Below, in pieces: positions 396 through 10,455 of a stretch of DNA of 64,000 nt. The stretch lies in assembly GCF_001548115.1 (NCBI RefSeq), contig NZ_AP014821.1, positions 1,987,262 to 2,051,261 on the forward strand, given 5' to 3'. Within the stretch, counting starts at the first letter, position 1. Each line of letters begins with the position of its first letter. The position numbers were made by a program, and so were the translations under genes. This DNA is from Geminocystis sp. NIES-3709. GTDB taxonomy: Bacteria; Cyanobacteriota; Cyanobacteriia; Cyanobacteriales; Cyanobacteriaceae. The notes beneath the pieces are model-generated. The model had not been told where the DNA came from. It saw only the letters and a list, made by a program, of their open reading frames with translations, and ran no database searches.

Positions 396-1199
396 GTGAT
401 TTATATTTCTATCATCGAAGGTAATCCCCATTTACGATCGCTGTTAGGTTGGCATTTACAACAGGTGGGATATATTACCCATCAGTACGGTACTATTCAA
501 CAAGCTAGAAATAGTTTAGTGAATCAAATCCCGACTCTAGTAATATTAGACTCAGACTTACCTGACGGTGACGGTATCGATTTTTGTCAATGGTTATATC
601 AATCTCATCAGACATTAATTTTAATGTTGTCAGCAAAAATAAACGAGAAAGATGTGGTAAAGGGATTAAAAGCTGGAGCCGATGATTACTTAAAAAAACC
701 CTTTGGAATGCAAGAATTTTTGGCAAGAGTTGAATCTTTATTGAGACGTTTTCGAGTGAATAATGCCCCTTTAATTTTGGATTTTGGAGATTTAAAAATA
801 GATTTAGTTCAAAGGCGGGTAGAATTTCGACAGGAATTGATCGATCTCACCCCTCAAGAGTTTAGTTTATTATATGTCTTAAGTCAGGCTCAAGGTTCTC
901 CGTTAAGTCGTTCTGAATTATTGCGTAGAGCATGGCCTGAAGCGATCGAAAATCAAAGAACGATCGATACCCATGTGCTATCATTAAGAAAAAAAATTGA
1001 ACTTGATCCCCGTCAACCGAATCTAATCCAAACAGTGCGTAATGTCGGTTATCGTTTTAACTTAGAACTTTTACAACAAAAAAGTATTGAGTGTGATAAT
1101 AATTTTACTCAGAAAAATAATTTTTCCCAAAACGGCGATCACAATGGACAATATTTATCTAATAATAGAATAATCAAAGAAAAAATCAATGCATTTTAG
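396..1199 (+). CDS. OmpR/PhoB-family DNA-binding response regulator
   Basis: A two-component response regulator of 267 residues. Residues 1-120 form a receiver domain with a probable phosphoacceptor Asp52 (motif LDSDLPDGDG), Ser79 and the conserved Lys101 in LKKPF. Residues 125-222 form a winged-helix DNA-binding domain with the typical ending TVRNVGYRF. A polar Asn/Gln-rich tail of about 45 residues follows. The usual acidic pair near the N-terminus is reduced to Glu8 with Gly9 beside it, so phosphorylation may be atypical. The start is a GTG at 396, which fits the beginning of the receiver fold. The layout recalls cyanobacterial NblR-like regulators, but I cannot assign the target. No histidine kinase is adjacent, as is common in cyanobacteria. 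Family confident, role unknown. Confidence 0.9.
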   Translation: MIYISIIEGNPHLRSLLGWHLQQVGYITHQYGTIQQARNSLVNQIPTLVILDSDLPDGDGIDFCQWLYQSHQTLILMLSAKINEKDVVKGLKAGADDYLKKPFGMQEFLARVESLLRRFRVNNAPLILDFGDLKIDLVQRRVEFRQELIDLTPQEFSLLYVLSQAQGSPLSRSELLRRAWPEAIENQRTIDTHVLSLRKKIELDPRQPNLIQTVRNVGYRFNLELLQQKSIECDNNFTQKNNFSQNGDHNGQYLSNNRIIKEKINAF

Positions 1200-3451: not shown

Positions 3452-4640
3452 AGCTAAGACGCATTGATTTGGTATATAATTTAAGTCAGAAAAGATAAAA
3501 CTTAGGTGTGATTTATGCCTTCTAAAAATTTTTTGTCAGAGGAAGAAAGAAAGTATCTACAAGATGCTTTAAAAATAGAAAAGAGATCGGAAGTCAGGGA
3601 AAGAATTTTAATATTTTTATTAGAGAATGATGGTAAAAATTATCAAGAAATAGCAGTTTTTTTGGGTTGTTCCCCCAAAACGGTGGCTTACTGGGCAGTT
3701 CATGGTAATCCTAATAATGTAGATTCATTGCAAGATAAAAGAAGAAAAGGAAACCAAACAAAAGCAACGGATAAATATATTGAAAGATTATTAGAAGTAG
3801 TTGATAAAAATCCTGAAGATTTTGGATATGATTTTGGTCGATGGACGGGGCAAAGATTATCAGAACATTTGGAAAAAGAAACAGGAATTAAATTAAGCAA
3901 ATCACAAGTAGTGAGGATATTAAAAAGAAAAAAGTATAGTTATATTTGGGGAAAATATAGTTTAGAAGACAAACAAAATCAAGAACAAAGAAAAGCATTT
4001 AAAGAAAAATTAGAACATTACATAGAAATAGGTAAAGAGAATCCTGAGTTAGTTCAAGTATGGTTTTGGGATGAGTGTGGTTTTATTTTAAGGGTGATAA
4101 GAAGAAAAACATGGACGAAAAAAGGAAAAAGAAAAAAGGTGAAGGGAGAAAGAAGAAGAGGAAGAGTAAATATCATGGGAGGAATAAGATATTCGGATAA
4201 AAAAAGAAGATGTTTTGTAATAAAAAAAGGTGATTCAGAAACGTTTTGTGAACAATTAAAAAAGTTATGGGAAGAAATAAAAAATGAATGGGTAAGTAAG
4301 GGAAATGATGAAAAAGATTTTAAAGAATGTGGTCCGAAAATAATCATAATATTAGACAACGCAAGTTTCCATAAAAAAAAGGAAATAGTAGAAAAAATAG
4401 AAAAAAATCTACCGAATATAAGACTAGAATATTTACCGGTATATAGTCCAGATTATAACTTAATAGAATTAGTGTGGAATTCGGCAAAGGAATATATAGC
4501 TTATAGAAACTTTGAAAATAAAGAACAGCTAGAAAAAACAGTAAATTACTTATTAAATGAAGGAGGTTTAGTAATTAATTGGAGTAAAAAATTTAAGAAT
4601 AAGGGTGAATTAATCAATGTAAGTTAAATGCGTCTTAGCT
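3452..4640 (+). mobile_element. Complete IS630-family insertion sequence with TA target duplication
   Basis: The element is 1,189 bases long and bounded by perfect 14-base inverted repeats, AGCTAAGACGCATT at 3452-3465 and its complement at 4627-4640. It is flanked by TA at 3450-3451 and 4641-4642, the dinucleotide duplicated by IS630/mariner-type transposition. It carries one transposase gene filling most of its length. It sits inside a Uma2 gene and its exact removal restores that frame. Ends are certain from the sequence; family comes from the transposase. Confidence 0.95.
3515..4627 (+). CDS. IS630-family DDE transposase
   Basis: A full-length transposase of 370 residues. The first 140 residues contain helix-turn-helix segments (NYQEIAVFLGCSPKTVAYW and LSKSQVVRILKRKKYSY). 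The catalytic DDE domain has its first Asp in VWFWDECGF, the second in IIILDNASFH and the Glu in SPDYNLIELVWNSAKEY, the arrangement seen in IS630 enzymes. Codon usage is very AT-rich and Lys-rich. The stop TAA overlaps the right inverted repeat by one base. No frameshift or truncation is visible, so the element looks functional, unlike IS630 copies that need a programmed frameshift. Confidence 0.95.
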   Translation: MPSKNFLSEEERKYLQDALKIEKRSEVRERILIFLLENDGKNYQEIAVFLGCSPKTVAYWAVHGNPNNVDSLQDKRRKGNQTKATDKYIERLLEVVDKNPEDFGYDFGRWTGQRLSEHLEKETGIKLSKSQVVRILKRKKYSYIWGKYSLEDKQNQEQRKAFKEKLEHYIEIGKENPELVQVWFWDECGFILRVIRRKTWTKKGKRKKVKGERRRGRVNIMGGIRYSDKKRRCFVIKKGDSETFCEQLKKLWEEIKNEWVSKGNDEKDFKECGPKIIIILDNASFHKKKEIVEKIEKNLPNIRLEYLPVYSPDYNLIELVWNSAKEYIAYRNFENKEQLEKTVNYLLNEGGLVINWSKKFKNKGELINVS

Positions 4641-5279: not shown

Positions 5280-6068
5280 CTATCTCATCATTATTCCCCC
5301 AGAAGTATAAGCTAAGGTTTCTTGATTTTCAGGATTAAGAAAGATCTTTTCAACACTATTTTGTTCTACTATAAACCCTGTTTTTTCTCCTCGATCGTTT
5401 TCTCTTATATCCATGTAAATTACTTCATCACAAACCCTTGCAATTTGTTTGAGATCGTGAGTAGTCATAATGATGGTATAATCTTTTTTAAGGTGATATA
5501 ACAAGTTTTCAATCTCCAGAGTAGAAATGGGATCTAAAGCAGAGCAAGGCTCATCTAGTAGTATAATCTCTGGTTGAATTGCGATCGCTCTTGCTAAACA
5601 AAGACGTTGTTTTTGCCCACCAGAAAGAATCATAGCGTTTTTATGAAGATGATTTTTTACCTCATCCCATAACCCCACCTTCATTAAAGAATCTTCGACT
5701 AAATCATCAATATTTTTCTTATAACCGTTAGCTTTTAAAGCCATAGAAATATTTTTGTAAATAGAAGTAGGAAAAGGTGCAGGTTGTTGAAATAGCATTC
5801 CAACAATTCGACGTAACTGTACTAAATTAACATCAGGATCATAAATATTTTGATCTTTGAACAAGATATTTCCCTTAATTTTCATGCCATCAATAAAGTC
5901 ATTAAGACGGTTAAAACATCTTAAAAGTGTACTTTTTCCACAACCCGATCGACCCATAATACCAGTAATTTGTTGAGGTTTTATATCTAAAAATACTCCA
6001 GCAATAATAGAAGTTTCTTGATAAAAAACAGCTAAATTTTCTACTTTAATAATGTTGTCATTAGTCAT
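5280..6068 (-). CDS. pstB: Phosphate ABC transporter ATP-binding protein PstB
   Basis: The ATPase subunit of the high-affinity phosphate importer, 262 residues, the usual length. Walker A is GRSGCGKST at residues 39-47, the Q-loop is in MLFQQPAPFP, the ABC signature LSGGQKQR is at 148-155, Walker B ILLDEP is at about 169-174, and the H-loop His204 is in MTTHDL. The segment FNRLNDFIDGMKIKG is typical of PstB. It lies 15 bases downstream of the fused permease gene in the same orientation, the last gene of a leftward phosphate operon. It should act at the cytoplasmic face of the fused PstCA protein. Confidence 0.96.
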   Translation of the reverse strand: MTNDNIIKVENLAVFYQETSIIAGVFLDIKPQQITGIMGRSGCGKSTLLRCFNRLNDFIDGMKIKGNILFKDQNIYDPDVNLVQLRRIVGMLFQQPAPFPTSIYKNISMALKANGYKKNIDDLVEDSLMKVGLWDEVKNHLHKNAMILSGGQKQRLCLARAIAIQPEIILLDEPCSALDPISTLEIENLLYHLKKDYTIIMTTHDLKQIARVCDEVIYMDIRENDRGEKTGFIVEQNSVEKIFLNPENQETLAYTSGGIMMR

Positions 6069-6083
6069 AAATTACTCCTAAAA

Positions 6084-7967
6084 TTAACTATAAGATTTAG
6101 AGAAAAATTCCCTAATTGATAATGAAATTAAATTGAGAATTAATAACATCACCACCAAAACAATAATGGCGGCGGCGGCTAAAGATTGAACTTCCGCCTT
6201 TGGATTTTGTAACCAATAGAATATTTGTACTGGTAAAGTGGTATAACTACTGGTTAAGCCTTCCCATGATAAGGGGGGTAAAAACCTTACGGAAGCCTTG
6301 GCACCAACTCCAATTAAAGCGGCAGTTTCTGCTAAAGCACGAACTTGAGCAATTAATACCCCAGTTATAATACTTGGTAATGCAGAAGGAATAATTAATT
6401 GTTGTAATACTTGTTCTTTGGTCATCCCTACAGCATAACCTCCATTGCGCAGGGTTTTCCCTGTACTTTTTAAAGCAGTACGACAGGTAATAATCAGAGT
6501 AGGCAAAGTCATTAAGGTTAAAACTAACGCACCAGAAAGAATACTATAACCCCCTGTTATTGGTTTAAGAAGACGTACAAAAATCTCTAAGCCGAGTAAG
6601 CCGTAAATAATGGAAGGAATAGCGGCTAAATTGGCAATACTAACTTCTAAAAATCCATTTAAGGCGTTATTTTTGCGATATTCTTCCAAATAAATAGCAC
6701 TTCCTACCCCTAAAGGAATCACCATCATTAAGCTAAGTACAAATAGCCAGACACTTCCCACTAACCCTGCTAAAATACCTGATTCTTCCACTCTACGAGA
6801 AGAAAAACTGGTTATAAATGTCCAATTAAGACGATTTAAGCCTGTTTCTCCTAAATCCCATAGTAAAATAACTAAAAATATAACTCCAACGGTAGAAGCA
6901 AAAAATCCAAAAAATTGTAATATTTTATCTGGTAAAACTCTATTTAGGGGAAGATGATTATTAAGTTTAATATTTTCTCTTTTTGATGATGATAAATAGT
7001 AACTTTTTTCTGATAACTTATTATTATTAGATAATAGTATTTCTTTTTGGATTTTACTGTGATTATTATTTGATTTTGATTCTTTGTTTTGTAACCAGTA
7101 ACTAAAAGTATTGAGAAGAAATGTAGCTAGAAATAGGATAAATCCCACGGTAAAAATTGTTTTGAACATAAGAGAATCAAATTCCACTGTTCCTAAACTT
7201 ACCCTAATAATAAAGGATGTTATGGTTTCGATCGGTTCAAAAGGATTTAAAGTTAAATTTGGTTTTTGTCCTGATGCGATCGCCACAATCATTGTTTCTC
7301 CTACGGCTACAGAAGTAGCGAGGGTGATAGCCGATAAAATTTTTGGTGAGATAGCAGGTAAAAGAATTAAACGAATAACCTCTTGTTTCGTCAACGCCAA
7401 GGCATAACCAGAGTTGCGTAATTCTGAGGAGAGAGAAAGTAAGGCATCTTCCGTAAGAGAAGCAATAATGGGAATAATCAAAATTCCGATACATACACCT
7501 GCACTTAAAGCATTAAAACCCCCAAGAGAAGGAAAAAAATGACTTTGCAAAAAAGGAGTTAATAATAAAAGAGCAAAATAGCCATAAACTACCCCCGGAA
7601 TACCATTTAAAGATTCCAAAGATATTTTAAAAATTTTTCTCCATTTATTGGGAGAATATTCCGCTAAATAAATACCTGCTAAAATTCCTAAAGGAATCGC
7701 CACAATTAAGGCAATTATAGTTACTAAAAAAGTTCCAGATAATAAAACAATAATCCCAAATTGAGCATCACTAAAATTAGGAGTCCATTCTTTACTTGTG
7801 AAAAAATCAAAAATAGAAACTTCTTGAAAAAATCCCCAAGTTTGAGTTACAAAAATACTAAAAATACCGAAGGTAATGATAATCGGAATAAACCCTAAAA
7901 TTGTAAAGCAAACTTCTTGCCATGATTTACGACGATGAGTTAAATTAAAAGATGATAATTTATACAT
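6084..7967 (-). CDS. Fused phosphate permease: PstC and PstA domains in one protein
   Basis: A 627-residue membrane protein holding both permease subunits of the Pst phosphate importer, which are normally separate proteins of about 300 residues each. Residues 1-292 match PstC, with the permease loop at about 181-208 (SSELRNSGYALALTKQEV) and the segment ESLNGIPGVVYGYFALL. Residues 293-345 are a polar Asn/Ser/Lys-rich linker. Residues 346-627 match PstA, with a second loop at about 500-530 (KTLRNGGYAVGMTKEQV) and AEVQSLAAAAIIVLVV near the end. Each half has about six membrane spans. The reading frame is continuous through the linker and no internal start or stop is evident. The ATG overlaps the stop of the upstream CBS/MCP-like gene by 8 bases, indicating translational coupling; pstB follows 15 bases later. 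Confidence 0.95.
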   Translation of the reverse strand: MYKLSSFNLTHRRKSWQEVCFTILGFIPIIITFGIFSIFVTQTWGFFQEVSIFDFFTSKEWTPNFSDAQFGIIVLLSGTFLVTIIALIVAIPLGILAGIYLAEYSPNKWRKIFKISLESLNGIPGVVYGYFALLLLTPFLQSHFFPSLGGFNALSAGVCIGILIIPIIASLTEDALLSLSSELRNSGYALALTKQEVIRLILLPAISPKILSAITLATSVAVGETMIVAIASGQKPNLTLNPFEPIETITSFIIRVSLGTVEFDSLMFKTIFTVGFILFLATFLLNTFSYWLQNKESKSNNNHSKIQKEILLSNNNKLSEKSYYLSSSKRENIKLNNHLPLNRVLPDKILQFFGFFASTVGVIFLVILLWDLGETGLNRLNWTFITSFSSRRVEESGILAGLVGSVWLFVLSLMMVIPLGVGSAIYLEEYRKNNALNGFLEVSIANLAAIPSIIYGLLGLEIFVRLLKPITGGYSILSGALVLTLMTLPTLIITCRTALKSTGKTLRNGGYAVGMTKEQVLQQLIIPSALPSIITGVLIAQVRALAETAALIGVGAKASVRFLPPLSWEGLTSSYTTLPVQIFYWLQNPKAEVQSLAAAAIIVLVVMLLILNLISLSIREFFSKSYS

Positions 7968-9102
7968 TATCCTGTCCTTTTTCTACTAAATTATTTAATT
8001 TATTTAATGCTAATTCTGTACCTTGAGAGTTACGCACTAAACTTTTTACTACCTCCCTATTTTCTTGGGCAGTATTTACTAAAATCTTGATCTCTGGTTT
8101 CAACTGTTGAGCGATACTATTAACACTAGCGGTAGCTTCTGCTATTTGTAAACTCAGTTTTTTAATTTCTTCTGAAATCATATTAAAAGAGATTCCCCTA
8201 CCATCATCGGAAGGTAAATTTGCTACCATAACACCTGCTTGAAAAGAAAGATTTTCTACTCTTTTACTGATTTTATTAATTAAATCTGTGGCTTGATTAA
8301 CCATTTTAAATTTATTCTGAAAGTTGTCTCCAATTTCGTTAATTTGTTCTGTAAAATTAATCATGGATTTTACACTTTCACTAAGAGCTTGAAAAGTATT
8401 TTTTCCTTCTTTTGATAGTAATAAACCTACATCAGAAAATCTTTGATTGAGATTATTTACCTTTTGAGTTTCTAGAAATAGTTGAGTTTGTTTTTCTTCT
8501 AATTCTTTTGTTTGATTTTTTAGTAATTTATTAGCTTCTTTTAAGTCTGCTTGTTGGTGTTCTAATTGATTTGCATACTCTTTTACTTTTTGTTTTTCAA
8601 TTTCGATCGTATCAGCATAATTCCTCAAATTTTGCTCTTGTTCTAACAATTTATTATTAATTTCTGAGAAGGTTTGAGCTTGATATAAAATTAAAATACT
8701 TAGTTCTAACATCCCAATTTCTTCGCCTTTTTTTGTAACTACGATCGGTTCATAAATAAAATCTGCACTGCGTTCTAAGGCAATTTTTACAGCGTCATTT
8801 ATCTCGGTTTTTAAAGGTATTTTAAGGGGATCATAATTATAACTTTCAATGAGTAATTTTATTGGACGTTTACTATAAATATCTCTTGCATATTCTTTAC
8901 TCATTTTTTCAAAAAATTTACGTCGAGAAATGACTCCTATTACCTGATTATTTTTTAGAACAAAAACTCCTGAAAGTTTAGGATTTAATAATAATTGTTG
9001 TTCTACGATTTCTGTGGCTACCTTAATATCTACTCTGTAGTTATCTAAAGGTAACTGTTTTAAAGTGGTTTGATATTTATTAATATTGCTTTCATTTTTC
9101 AT
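7960..9102 (-). CDS. Cytosolic CBS-domain / coiled-coil / MCP-like signalling protein
   Basis: A 380-residue protein with no membrane segment. Residues about 15-140 form a paired CBS-like module (GVFVLKNNQVIGVISRRKF and YEPIVVTKKGEEIGMLEL), similar to the N-terminal module of some GGDEF proteins and sensor kinases. Residues about 145-225 are a long coiled coil rich in Glu, Gln and Lys. Residues about 225-375 resemble the signalling helices of methyl-accepting chemotaxis proteins (NLSFQAGVMVANLPSDDGRGISFNMISEEIKKLS). It is the first gene of the leftward pst operon and its stop overlaps the pstCA start by 8 bases. A role in sensing or regulating phosphate transport, perhaps in place of PhoU, is inference from this position. 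CBS ligands are often adenine nucleotides. Domain calls are fairly sure; function is unknown. Confidence 0.8.
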   Translation of the reverse strand: MKNESNINKYQTTLKQLPLDNYRVDIKVATEIVEQQLLLNPKLSGVFVLKNNQVIGVISRRKFFEKMSKEYARDIYSKRPIKLLIESYNYDPLKIPLKTEINDAVKIALERSADFIYEPIVVTKKGEEIGMLELSILILYQAQTFSEINNKLLEQEQNLRNYADTIEIEKQKVKEYANQLEHQQADLKEANKLLKNQTKELEEKQTQLFLETQKVNNLNQRFSDVGLLLSKEGKNTFQALSESVKSMINFTEQINEIGDNFQNKFKMVNQATDLINKISKRVENLSFQAGVMVANLPSDDGRGISFNMISEEIKKLSLQIAEATASVNSIAQQLKPEIKILVNTAQENREVVKSLVRNSQGTELALNKLNNLVEKGQDNV

Positions 9103-9275
9103 GATATTTTATCTTAAGATACCCTCAACTCTCTTGACAAAAGAAAAAAGATGGAGAATAATGAAATGATTTTGAGTTGATAGGATTATAAATTTAAGAA
9201 TAATTTTAAAGTAAATTACTTATTAAGTTTCAACTATTAATTATCAATTGTCAAGAGTTTTTTTTAATTTTTTAC

Positions 9276-9315
9276 TTAACTTTTATTTAACTAAAACTTA
9301 ATCTATTCTTAATTC
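9276..9315 (+). promoter_or_regulatory. Pho-box array (SphR/PhoB-type binding site) upstream of pstS
   Basis: Four TTAAC/TTAAT cores start at 9276, 9287, 9298 and 9309, an exact 11-base period. This matches the known cyanobacterial Pho box, made of 8-base units of the form YTTAAYY(T/A) spaced by 3 bases. The array ends about 80 bases before the pstS start and lies in the 294-base divergent spacer, so it may also influence the CBS-pstCA-pstB operon. The repeat and spacing are seen directly; binding by SphR is inferred. Confidence 0.8.
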
Positions 9316-9396
9316 TTTAATAACCTTAATTATTAAATTAATAAGTTATATTTTAGTCGAAGAATAAAAAAAATGTATCAATAAATACATAAAATA

Positions 9397-10455
9397 ATGA
9401 TTAAATTTAAAATGAATAAAATCAGTAAATTATGGTTATCTTTTCCTTTAATAATTTTACTGACGGGGTTACAATCTTGCACTCAAAATAATTCAGAAGC
9501 CGTAACAAAAGTTCCTGAAACCACAGATTTAACAGGAAATATTACTATTGATGGTTCATCCACAGTATTTCCCATTACTCAGGCTATGGCTGAGGATTTT
9601 CAGGACGCTAATAATGGAGTTAAAATTGCCATCGGTGTGTCAGGTACTGGAGGTGGATTTAAGAAATTTTGTGCTGGAGAAACGGACATTTCCAACGCTT
9701 CTCGTCCTATTAAAAAGGAAGAAATCGAAAAATGTGCACAGGGAGGAATTGAATATGTAGAGTTACCTGTTGCTTTTGATGCTTTATCTGTGGTAGTAAA
9801 TCCAGAAAATGATTGGGCAGTCTGTTTGACAAAAGAGGAGTTACAAAAAATTTGGCAACCTTCTGCTCAAGGTTCGATCGCCAATTGGAAACAAATTCGA
9901 TCGACTTTTCCAGATCAACCTATTAACCTTTATGGGCCTGGTACTGATTCTGGTACTTTTGACTACTTTACGGAAGCAATCAACGATAAAAGTGGCGAAA
10001 GTAGGGGAGATTATACTGCCAGTGAAGATGATAATTTGATTGTACAGGGAGTTGGTGGGGATAAAGGTGCATTAGGTTACTTTGGTCTTTCTTACCTCGA
10101 AGAAAATTTAACTAAAGTGAAACCTGTTGCTATTGATGATGGAGATCCTAGTAATGGCGAGGGTTGTATCGAACCAAGTATTGCAACGGTAGAAACTGGT
10201 ACATATCAACCTCTAGCTCGTCCTATCTTTATCTATATAAAAAAATCATCTTTAGAACGTCCAGAAATTAAGAGTTTTATAGAATTTTACCTCAGTAAAG
10301 ATCAAAAATCGATCGTTGATGAGATTGGGTATATTCACTTATCAGACTCTGTGTATGATAAAGTATTAGCTCGTCTTTTAGCACAAAAAACTGGAACTGT
10401 ATTTTCTAATAATTCAACTATTGGTGTTAAATTAGATGATGTTTTACAAAATTAG
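9397..10455 (+). CDS. pstS: Phosphate-binding protein of the PstS/SphX family
   Basis: The extracytoplasmic phosphate receptor of the Pst importer, 352 residues. A short signal sequence ends in a lipobox (LLTGLQSC), so it should be a lipoprotein. Phosphate-binding loops are visible: [30 protein letters not shown] and [12 protein letters not shown]. The C-terminal part ([20 protein letters not shown]) is typical of the SphX-like branch found in cyanobacteria. It is transcribed away from the CBS-pstCA-pstB operon and has a Pho-box array upstream. ATG codons at 9397 and 9412 are both possible; the first gives a more basic N-terminus. Confidence 0.93.

Follow-up and report, generated by a model that had tools for sequence, protein, structure and literature searches.

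The whole stretch of 64,000 nucleotides of Geminocystis sp. NIES-3709 that was analysed here (hereafter, the window) encompasses a pst operon headed by a gene for a 380 aa protein that combines a CBS pair, a coiled coil and a degenerate MCP hairpin (7960..9102, minus strand; ATG start, 380 codons; hereafter, the CBS/MCP-like gene). This gene is followed by pstCA, encoding a fused PstC-PstA permease (6084..7967, minus strand; TIGR02138 348 bits and TIGR00974 345 bits, both above the cut-off), and pstB, encoding the ATPase (5280..6068, minus strand; TIGR00972 326 bits, slightly below the cut-off of 343); pstS is divergent (9397..10455, plus strand; TIGR02136 318 bits, above the cut-off). The 8-base overlap between the stop of the gene and the start of pstCA that was reported in the initial annotation is present at 7960..7967 (minus strand). 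The protein shares 88% identity with the copy from the nearest relative (genome G008), and the dN/dS ratio between the two genomes is 0.094 for the CBS/MCP-like gene, compared with 0.150 for PstCA and 0.079 for PstB; on the strength of this identity and this ratio, and hence of sequence comparison, we count the open reading frame as a real gene.

Within the window's family (f1), a full-length match was found in 8 of the 15 genomes, and the order CBS/MCP-like gene-pstCA-pstB with divergent pstS is kept in all 8. By longest open reading frame, the 8-nt overlap is present in six of these; in L036, an ATG lies at the same place, and L038 differs. Of the 15 genomes, these 8 also contain fused PstCA at E <= 1e-120 (two of the 7 genomes without it are less than 70% complete). 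Because all 8 genomes with the gene have another PstA at a separate locus (C1:540152 in the window genome), this operon constitutes a second Pst system.

Several further genes bear on this genomic setting. The region G000:C1:540152-541945 of the window genome contains another pstA-like/pstC-like pair, which brings the number of Pst permease loci to two. A PhoB/OmpR-type response regulator is encoded at 396-1199 (plus strand) of the window, ~4 kb from pstB, and scores 179 bits against the PhoB model (cut-off 296 bits). Its 70%-identical homologue (L138 1248-1928, f28) is located ~0.9 kb from a fused pstCA, and thus the response regulator may belong to this Pst system. A transposase-like open reading frame, IS630-like by eye, lies between the response regulator and the pst operon (3515-4627, plus strand).

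The AlphaFold model of the protein (61 sequences; pLDDT 81.6, pTM 0.41), together with Foldseek matches to CBS-pair structures, places a CBS pair at residues ~20-133 (8704..9045, minus strand), followed by an antiparallel helical hairpin at residues 134-380 (7963..8703, minus strand) that consists of a helix (134-294), a loop (295-301) and a second helix (302-379), with an MCP-like stretch at residues 241-375. The tip loop (8200..8220, minus strand), which is modelled with low confidence, is near the place of the CheA/CheW-binding motif of MCPs and is eroded. All Foldseek matches ranked 1-25 are CBS-domain proteins, and the model matches solved CBS pairs with an E value of 4.9e-6 and a probability of 1.00 (TM 0.72 by target length, 0.28 by query length). 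The fold of residues 20-133 is shared with CBSX1 (4gqw), OpuCA (5iip) and AcuB (9s51); the window protein differs from these CBS-pair proteins in the attached MCP-like hairpin and the absence of the ribose-binding Asp from CBS1. The protein is probably dimeric.

At the level of sequence profiles, the two parts are detected below the gathering cut-offs: the window protein scores 19.1 bits against the Pfam CBS family (cut-off 24 bits) and 22.8 bits against PF00015, the MCP family (cut-off 34.6 bits). A relative from f43 (L157) passes both, with 66.2 bits for MCP and 24.8 bits for CBS, and at E <= 0.01 MCPsignal is detected in 34, and CBS in 11, of the 61 aligned relatives. A sequence search of the PDB yielded MCP matches near E 1e-4 (2ch7, E 1.2e-4), the weaker matches being mostly to coiled-coil proteins; the other matches in the protein's own genome are only 22-26% identical stretches of frames of ~1130 residues. 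The sequence has no predicted membrane segment (maximum 19-residue Kyte-Doolittle mean, 1.0), and no match to PhoU (PF01895) was found among the families at E <= 1. The initial description of a cytosolic CBS and MCP-like protein that heads the pst operon is thereby supported. Compared with the MCP signalling domain (PF00015; PDB 2ch7, 1qu7), the protein has the helical hairpin and the weak profile match in common and differs in having no membrane or extracellular part and in the loss of the CheA/CheW tip. According to PMC1592074, the signalling helix is often found after CBS domains, and this helix is typically not fused to MCP domains.

As judged by comparison with the aligned Thermotoga maritima MCP, the tip motif NAAxEA is lost in 72 of the 74 aligned sequences and is kept, as NAAVEA, only in two sequences from f43 (an automatic comparison with the MCPs of the window genome itself yielded no tip to compare). 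Given that L157 passes both Pfam cut-offs and keeps NAAVEA, and that the motif is lost in those 72 sequences, the protein most likely descends from a soluble chemoreceptor, with erosion of the CheA-binding tip. For nucleotide binding by CBS domains, we take the ribose-binding Asp motif to be G-x-x-T/S-x-x-D. At the CBS1 position (62), this Asp is absent in 25 of the 26 Pho-type sequences, the single exception not being the window protein, and at the CBS2 position (136), it is outside the six commonest letters among the Pho-type sequences. In these sequences, conservation within the CBS pair is 90% or higher at positions G45, G56, F63, E65, P80, I81, R111 and P119. The nucleotide sensing suggested in the initial annotation is thus weakened as far as the canonical CBS motif is concerned, and the eroded tip together with the absent CBS1 Asp argues against both a working chemoreceptor and simple nucleotide sensing.

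Across the order, 222 of the 388 genomes contain a match at 1e-15. By our own count, ~90 of these matches extend over nearly the full length (two of them without at least the first 74 residues), and the others mostly cover the CBS module. In a sample of 386 genomes from the phylum, 32 have a match at 1e-34, including ten from outside the order. Neighborhoods were taken for 59 of the 82 near-full-length matches outside f1 and for one partial match (G216), several being cut by contig ends. The pairing with pst, far from being absent from all relatives, recurs: it was observed at 11 of the 19 relative loci of f1, f7, f8, f11, f13, f18 and f26, and at none of the 48 loci of the rest. In f18, f11 (where the linkage is to a pstCA frame of 150 codons located at the end of a contig) and two of the four f13 loci, pst adjoins the gene, though outside one operon.

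This linkage is not strict. The gene is found beside pstCA in none of the 13 fused-pstCA loci read in other genomes, and 8 of the 19 orthologue loci are not near pst; hence direct contact with PstCA is not a requirement. The f7, f8 and f26 genomes that carry the gene contain no unbroken fused PstCA at E <= 1e-120, which likewise speaks against an obligatory partnership with the fused permease, and this possibility was rejected. The unlinked orthologues show no clear conserved neighborhood either: a pstB-like group that includes general ABC ATPases was found in five families and pstCA in three, and the other shared neighbors occur in two or three families at varying distance. Two loci from a clade without Pho boxes (L109, L119) were considered as pst-linked and rejected, the respective ABC ATPase being only 29-30% identical to PstB and read as a general one. 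One pst-adjoining orthologue (L080 1983-3182 in G093, f13) is broken by a stop codon.

The intergenic region between the CBS/MCP-like gene and pstS contains a tandem array of Pho boxes with an 11-bp period that reads towards pstS (9275..9326, plus strand), comprising an exact three-box match at 9275-9304 (plus strand) and two boxes, 9308-9315 and 9319-9326, added by eye. The layout is the same as that of the SphS-SphR Pho regulon, for which three tandem 8-bp boxes with 3-bp linkers are described in PMC1906773. Upstream regions of 350 bp were scored with a matrix derived from 63 boxes in 21 published SphR sites; 9 of the 30 Pho-box rows of Table 1 of that paper were left out, namely three from PCC 7942, which are near repeats of those from PCC 6301, and six from Prochlorococcus and WH8102. 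None of 1000 dinucleotide shuffles reaches the score of the window array. The exact three-box pattern occurs three times in the 4.43 Mb of the window genome, one of these being this site, and the reversed pattern never occurs. The other two sites, at G000:C1:1848088 and 3891917 (L158 and L160), are near a frame resembling glutamate-cysteine ligase and a gene resembling sepF (names assigned by eye), and the genes examined at these sites show no clear link to phosphate.

The best array that faces the CBS/MCP-like gene in f1 is weak (7.5 in the window, at most 12.5 in the 7 relatives), and a promoter scan of the stretch between this gene and pstS found 5 matches against 3.2 expected, no more than by chance. 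Given that the strong array reads towards pstS, control of the gene by SphR in the window genome is only putative, and the independent evidence of Pho control comes from the 15 loci without pst nearby (one in f7, four in f8, two in f13, one in f26, two in f39 and five in f40). At 13 of these 15 loci, a gene-facing array exceeds the 95th percentile of control upstream regions, and at 13 of 15, the best array on either strand is equalled or exceeded in no more than 14 of 1000 dinucleotide shuffles; L075 and L148 fall short (42 and 54 of 1000 shuffles, respectively). A role in phosphate control, as initially proposed, is supported by these boxes, which precede orthologues located away from pst.

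Linked and unlinked loci were also scored together. For f1, f7, f8, f11, f13, f18 and f26, 16 of the 19 loci reach the 95th percentile of 98 control upstream regions and 13 reach the 99th (Mann-Whitney p 5e-11), the controls having been taken from the same loci as the tested genes. In the other families of the order, only 2 of the 46 loci score at or above the 95th percentile of 199 controls, and no locus attains the 99th (p 0.07). Outside the order, both f39 loci and four of the five f40 loci are above the 95th percentile of 83 controls, and the single loci of f38 and f43 are not. Pho boxes above the 95th percentile are present in eight family groups (f1, f7, f8, f11, f13, f26, f39 and f40); the tested loci are related, and therefore these counts are not independent, with the unlinked set spanning six families. 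Among the linked loci, two are weak (L037 and L077, with 147 and 59 of 1000 shuffles reaching the score, respectively), and the upstream regions of L118, L127 and L156 are too short for the test.

In the phylogenetic tree, for which f43 was chosen by us as the outgroup because it is the most MCP-like, most of the sequences with Pho boxes fall within a group of 25 (moderate support, 91/80) that also includes four sequences below the threshold of 12.5 (L131, L148, L077 and L037). The f39 sequences are placed beside this group, and 35 sequences without boxes form another group (85/98). Over 64 sequences, the Pho trait (score >= 12.5) requires 6 changes and the pst linkage 3. An earlier tree without the sequences from outside the order grouped the 18 sequences of f1, f7, f8, f11, f13 and f18 (100/99) and placed f26 with the rest. 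Several branches are long, and the placement of L083, L131 and others is unsure; L080, L095, L110 and L130 were excluded from the trees, 10 near-duplicates were also excluded from the second tree, and alignment A2 further excludes L076, L127 and L129. The members of the sister clade L084-L130 (f2, f5, f20, f28) are mostly longer (~390-460 aa), most with a C-terminal extension, and show neither pst linkage nor Pho boxes above chance.

In the textbook view, PhoU connects Pst transport to Pho signalling. The initial annotation saw no PhoU here, which is correct for the vicinity of the operon but not for the genome, where a two-domain PhoU is encoded at G000:C1:1820347-1820910, ~174 kb from the operon. 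PhoU was found in 25 of 27 genomes with and without the CBS/MCP-like gene, including all 24 near-complete ones, and the two genomes without it are both less than 70% complete. Because the genome carries phoU at another site, and because phoU is present regardless of this gene, the CBS/MCP-like protein is not a replacement for PhoU, and the idea that it compensates for a lack of PhoU was discarded.

Collectively, these observations suggest that the protein is probably an undescribed part of the cyanobacterial phosphate response. The best explanation, to which we assign an even chance, is that it is a cytosolic accessory regulator under Pho control, which acts on Pst or on Pho signalling and evolved from a soluble chemoreceptor. 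Under this explanation, phosphate shortage would trigger production of the protein. Its CBS pair would read an intracellular signal, probably by means other than the canonical nucleotide motif, and its long hairpin would relay the change to a partner, with the co-translated PstCA-PstB complex as the likeliest candidate, followed by SphS or PhoU. Transport or Pho signalling would thereby be trimmed as cells starve and recover, with the protein working beside PhoU, not in its stead. The transporter is favored as the target with moderate confidence, the choice being made by co-translation alone, which is conserved in f1. A bolder version, which we regard as possible but doubtful, posits a second, PhoU-independent arm of Pst/Pho control formed by an SphR-controlled former chemoreceptor with an eroded tip that, in one lineage, became a dedicated, co-translated permease regulator.

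If the adjacency to pst reflects only shared control, the protein could instead be a second modulator of the Pho signal that acts on SphS (or PhoU). The persistence of Pho boxes without pst linkage and the presence of PhoU elsewhere in the window genome fit this scenario, but the conserved operon and the overlap with pstCA in f1 favor the transporter, and contact with SphS is conjectural; we consider this scenario unlikely. A working soluble chemoreceptor that, via CheA/CheW or pilus taxis, steers starved cells towards phosphate would account for the MCP-like hairpin, for the near-canonical tip NAAVEA in the f43 relatives, one of which scores 66 bits as an MCP, and for the very faint similarity to HmpF, a pilus taxis protein (14.8 vs 200 bits); such a role is improbable for a protein that is itself below the MCP cut-off and belongs to a family in which the NAAxEA motif is lost in nearly all aligned members.

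Low probability also attaches to a coiled-coil scaffold or assembly factor for Pst or another starvation structure, in which the CBS pair would dimerise and sense nothing. The missing canonical CBS1 Asp, the 160-residue helix that dominates the model and weak matches to coiled-coil models (e.g., SMC, 23.6 vs 567 bits) are compatible with such a structural role, but the conservation of the eight CBS positions in the Pho-type sequences suggests more than dimerisation. Finally, the existence of fused pstCA operons without the gene could indicate a mere passenger in the operon that does not matter for phosphate, a notion to which we give very little credence in view of the purifying selection, the conserved gene order and the Pho boxes on unlinked orthologues.

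The preferred interpretation, that of a Pho-controlled accessory regulator, can be compared with PhoU-type proteins: a dedicated importer for each phosphate accessory protein is a theme already published for them (PMC13170248), and the likeness consists in an accessory cytosolic protein that is tied to one phosphate transporter and is a proposed modulator of transport and signalling. The window protein differs in that it contains a CBS pair and one helical hairpin in place of PhoU domains and coexists with PhoU, and would be a case unrelated to the PhoU-type accessory proteins. Among the open-licence titles and abstracts listed, there is no description of the protein, which might appear under another name; the passages of PMC1906773 covered here name no gene of this kind, its main text does not contain 'CBS', and 'CBS domain' is absent from the main text of PMC11358556. 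What is novel is the combination and use of known parts, namely the CBS pair, the chemoreceptor hairpin and Pho control. If correct, the proposed role would add an unrecognised regulator of phosphate supply in cyanobacteria, the growth of which phosphate often limits, and an example of how a metabolic regulator can arise from a chemoreceptor. The N-terminal CBS-pair module alone matches many other cyanobacterial frames, from ~220 to 1270 residues long, and apparently is a common input module.
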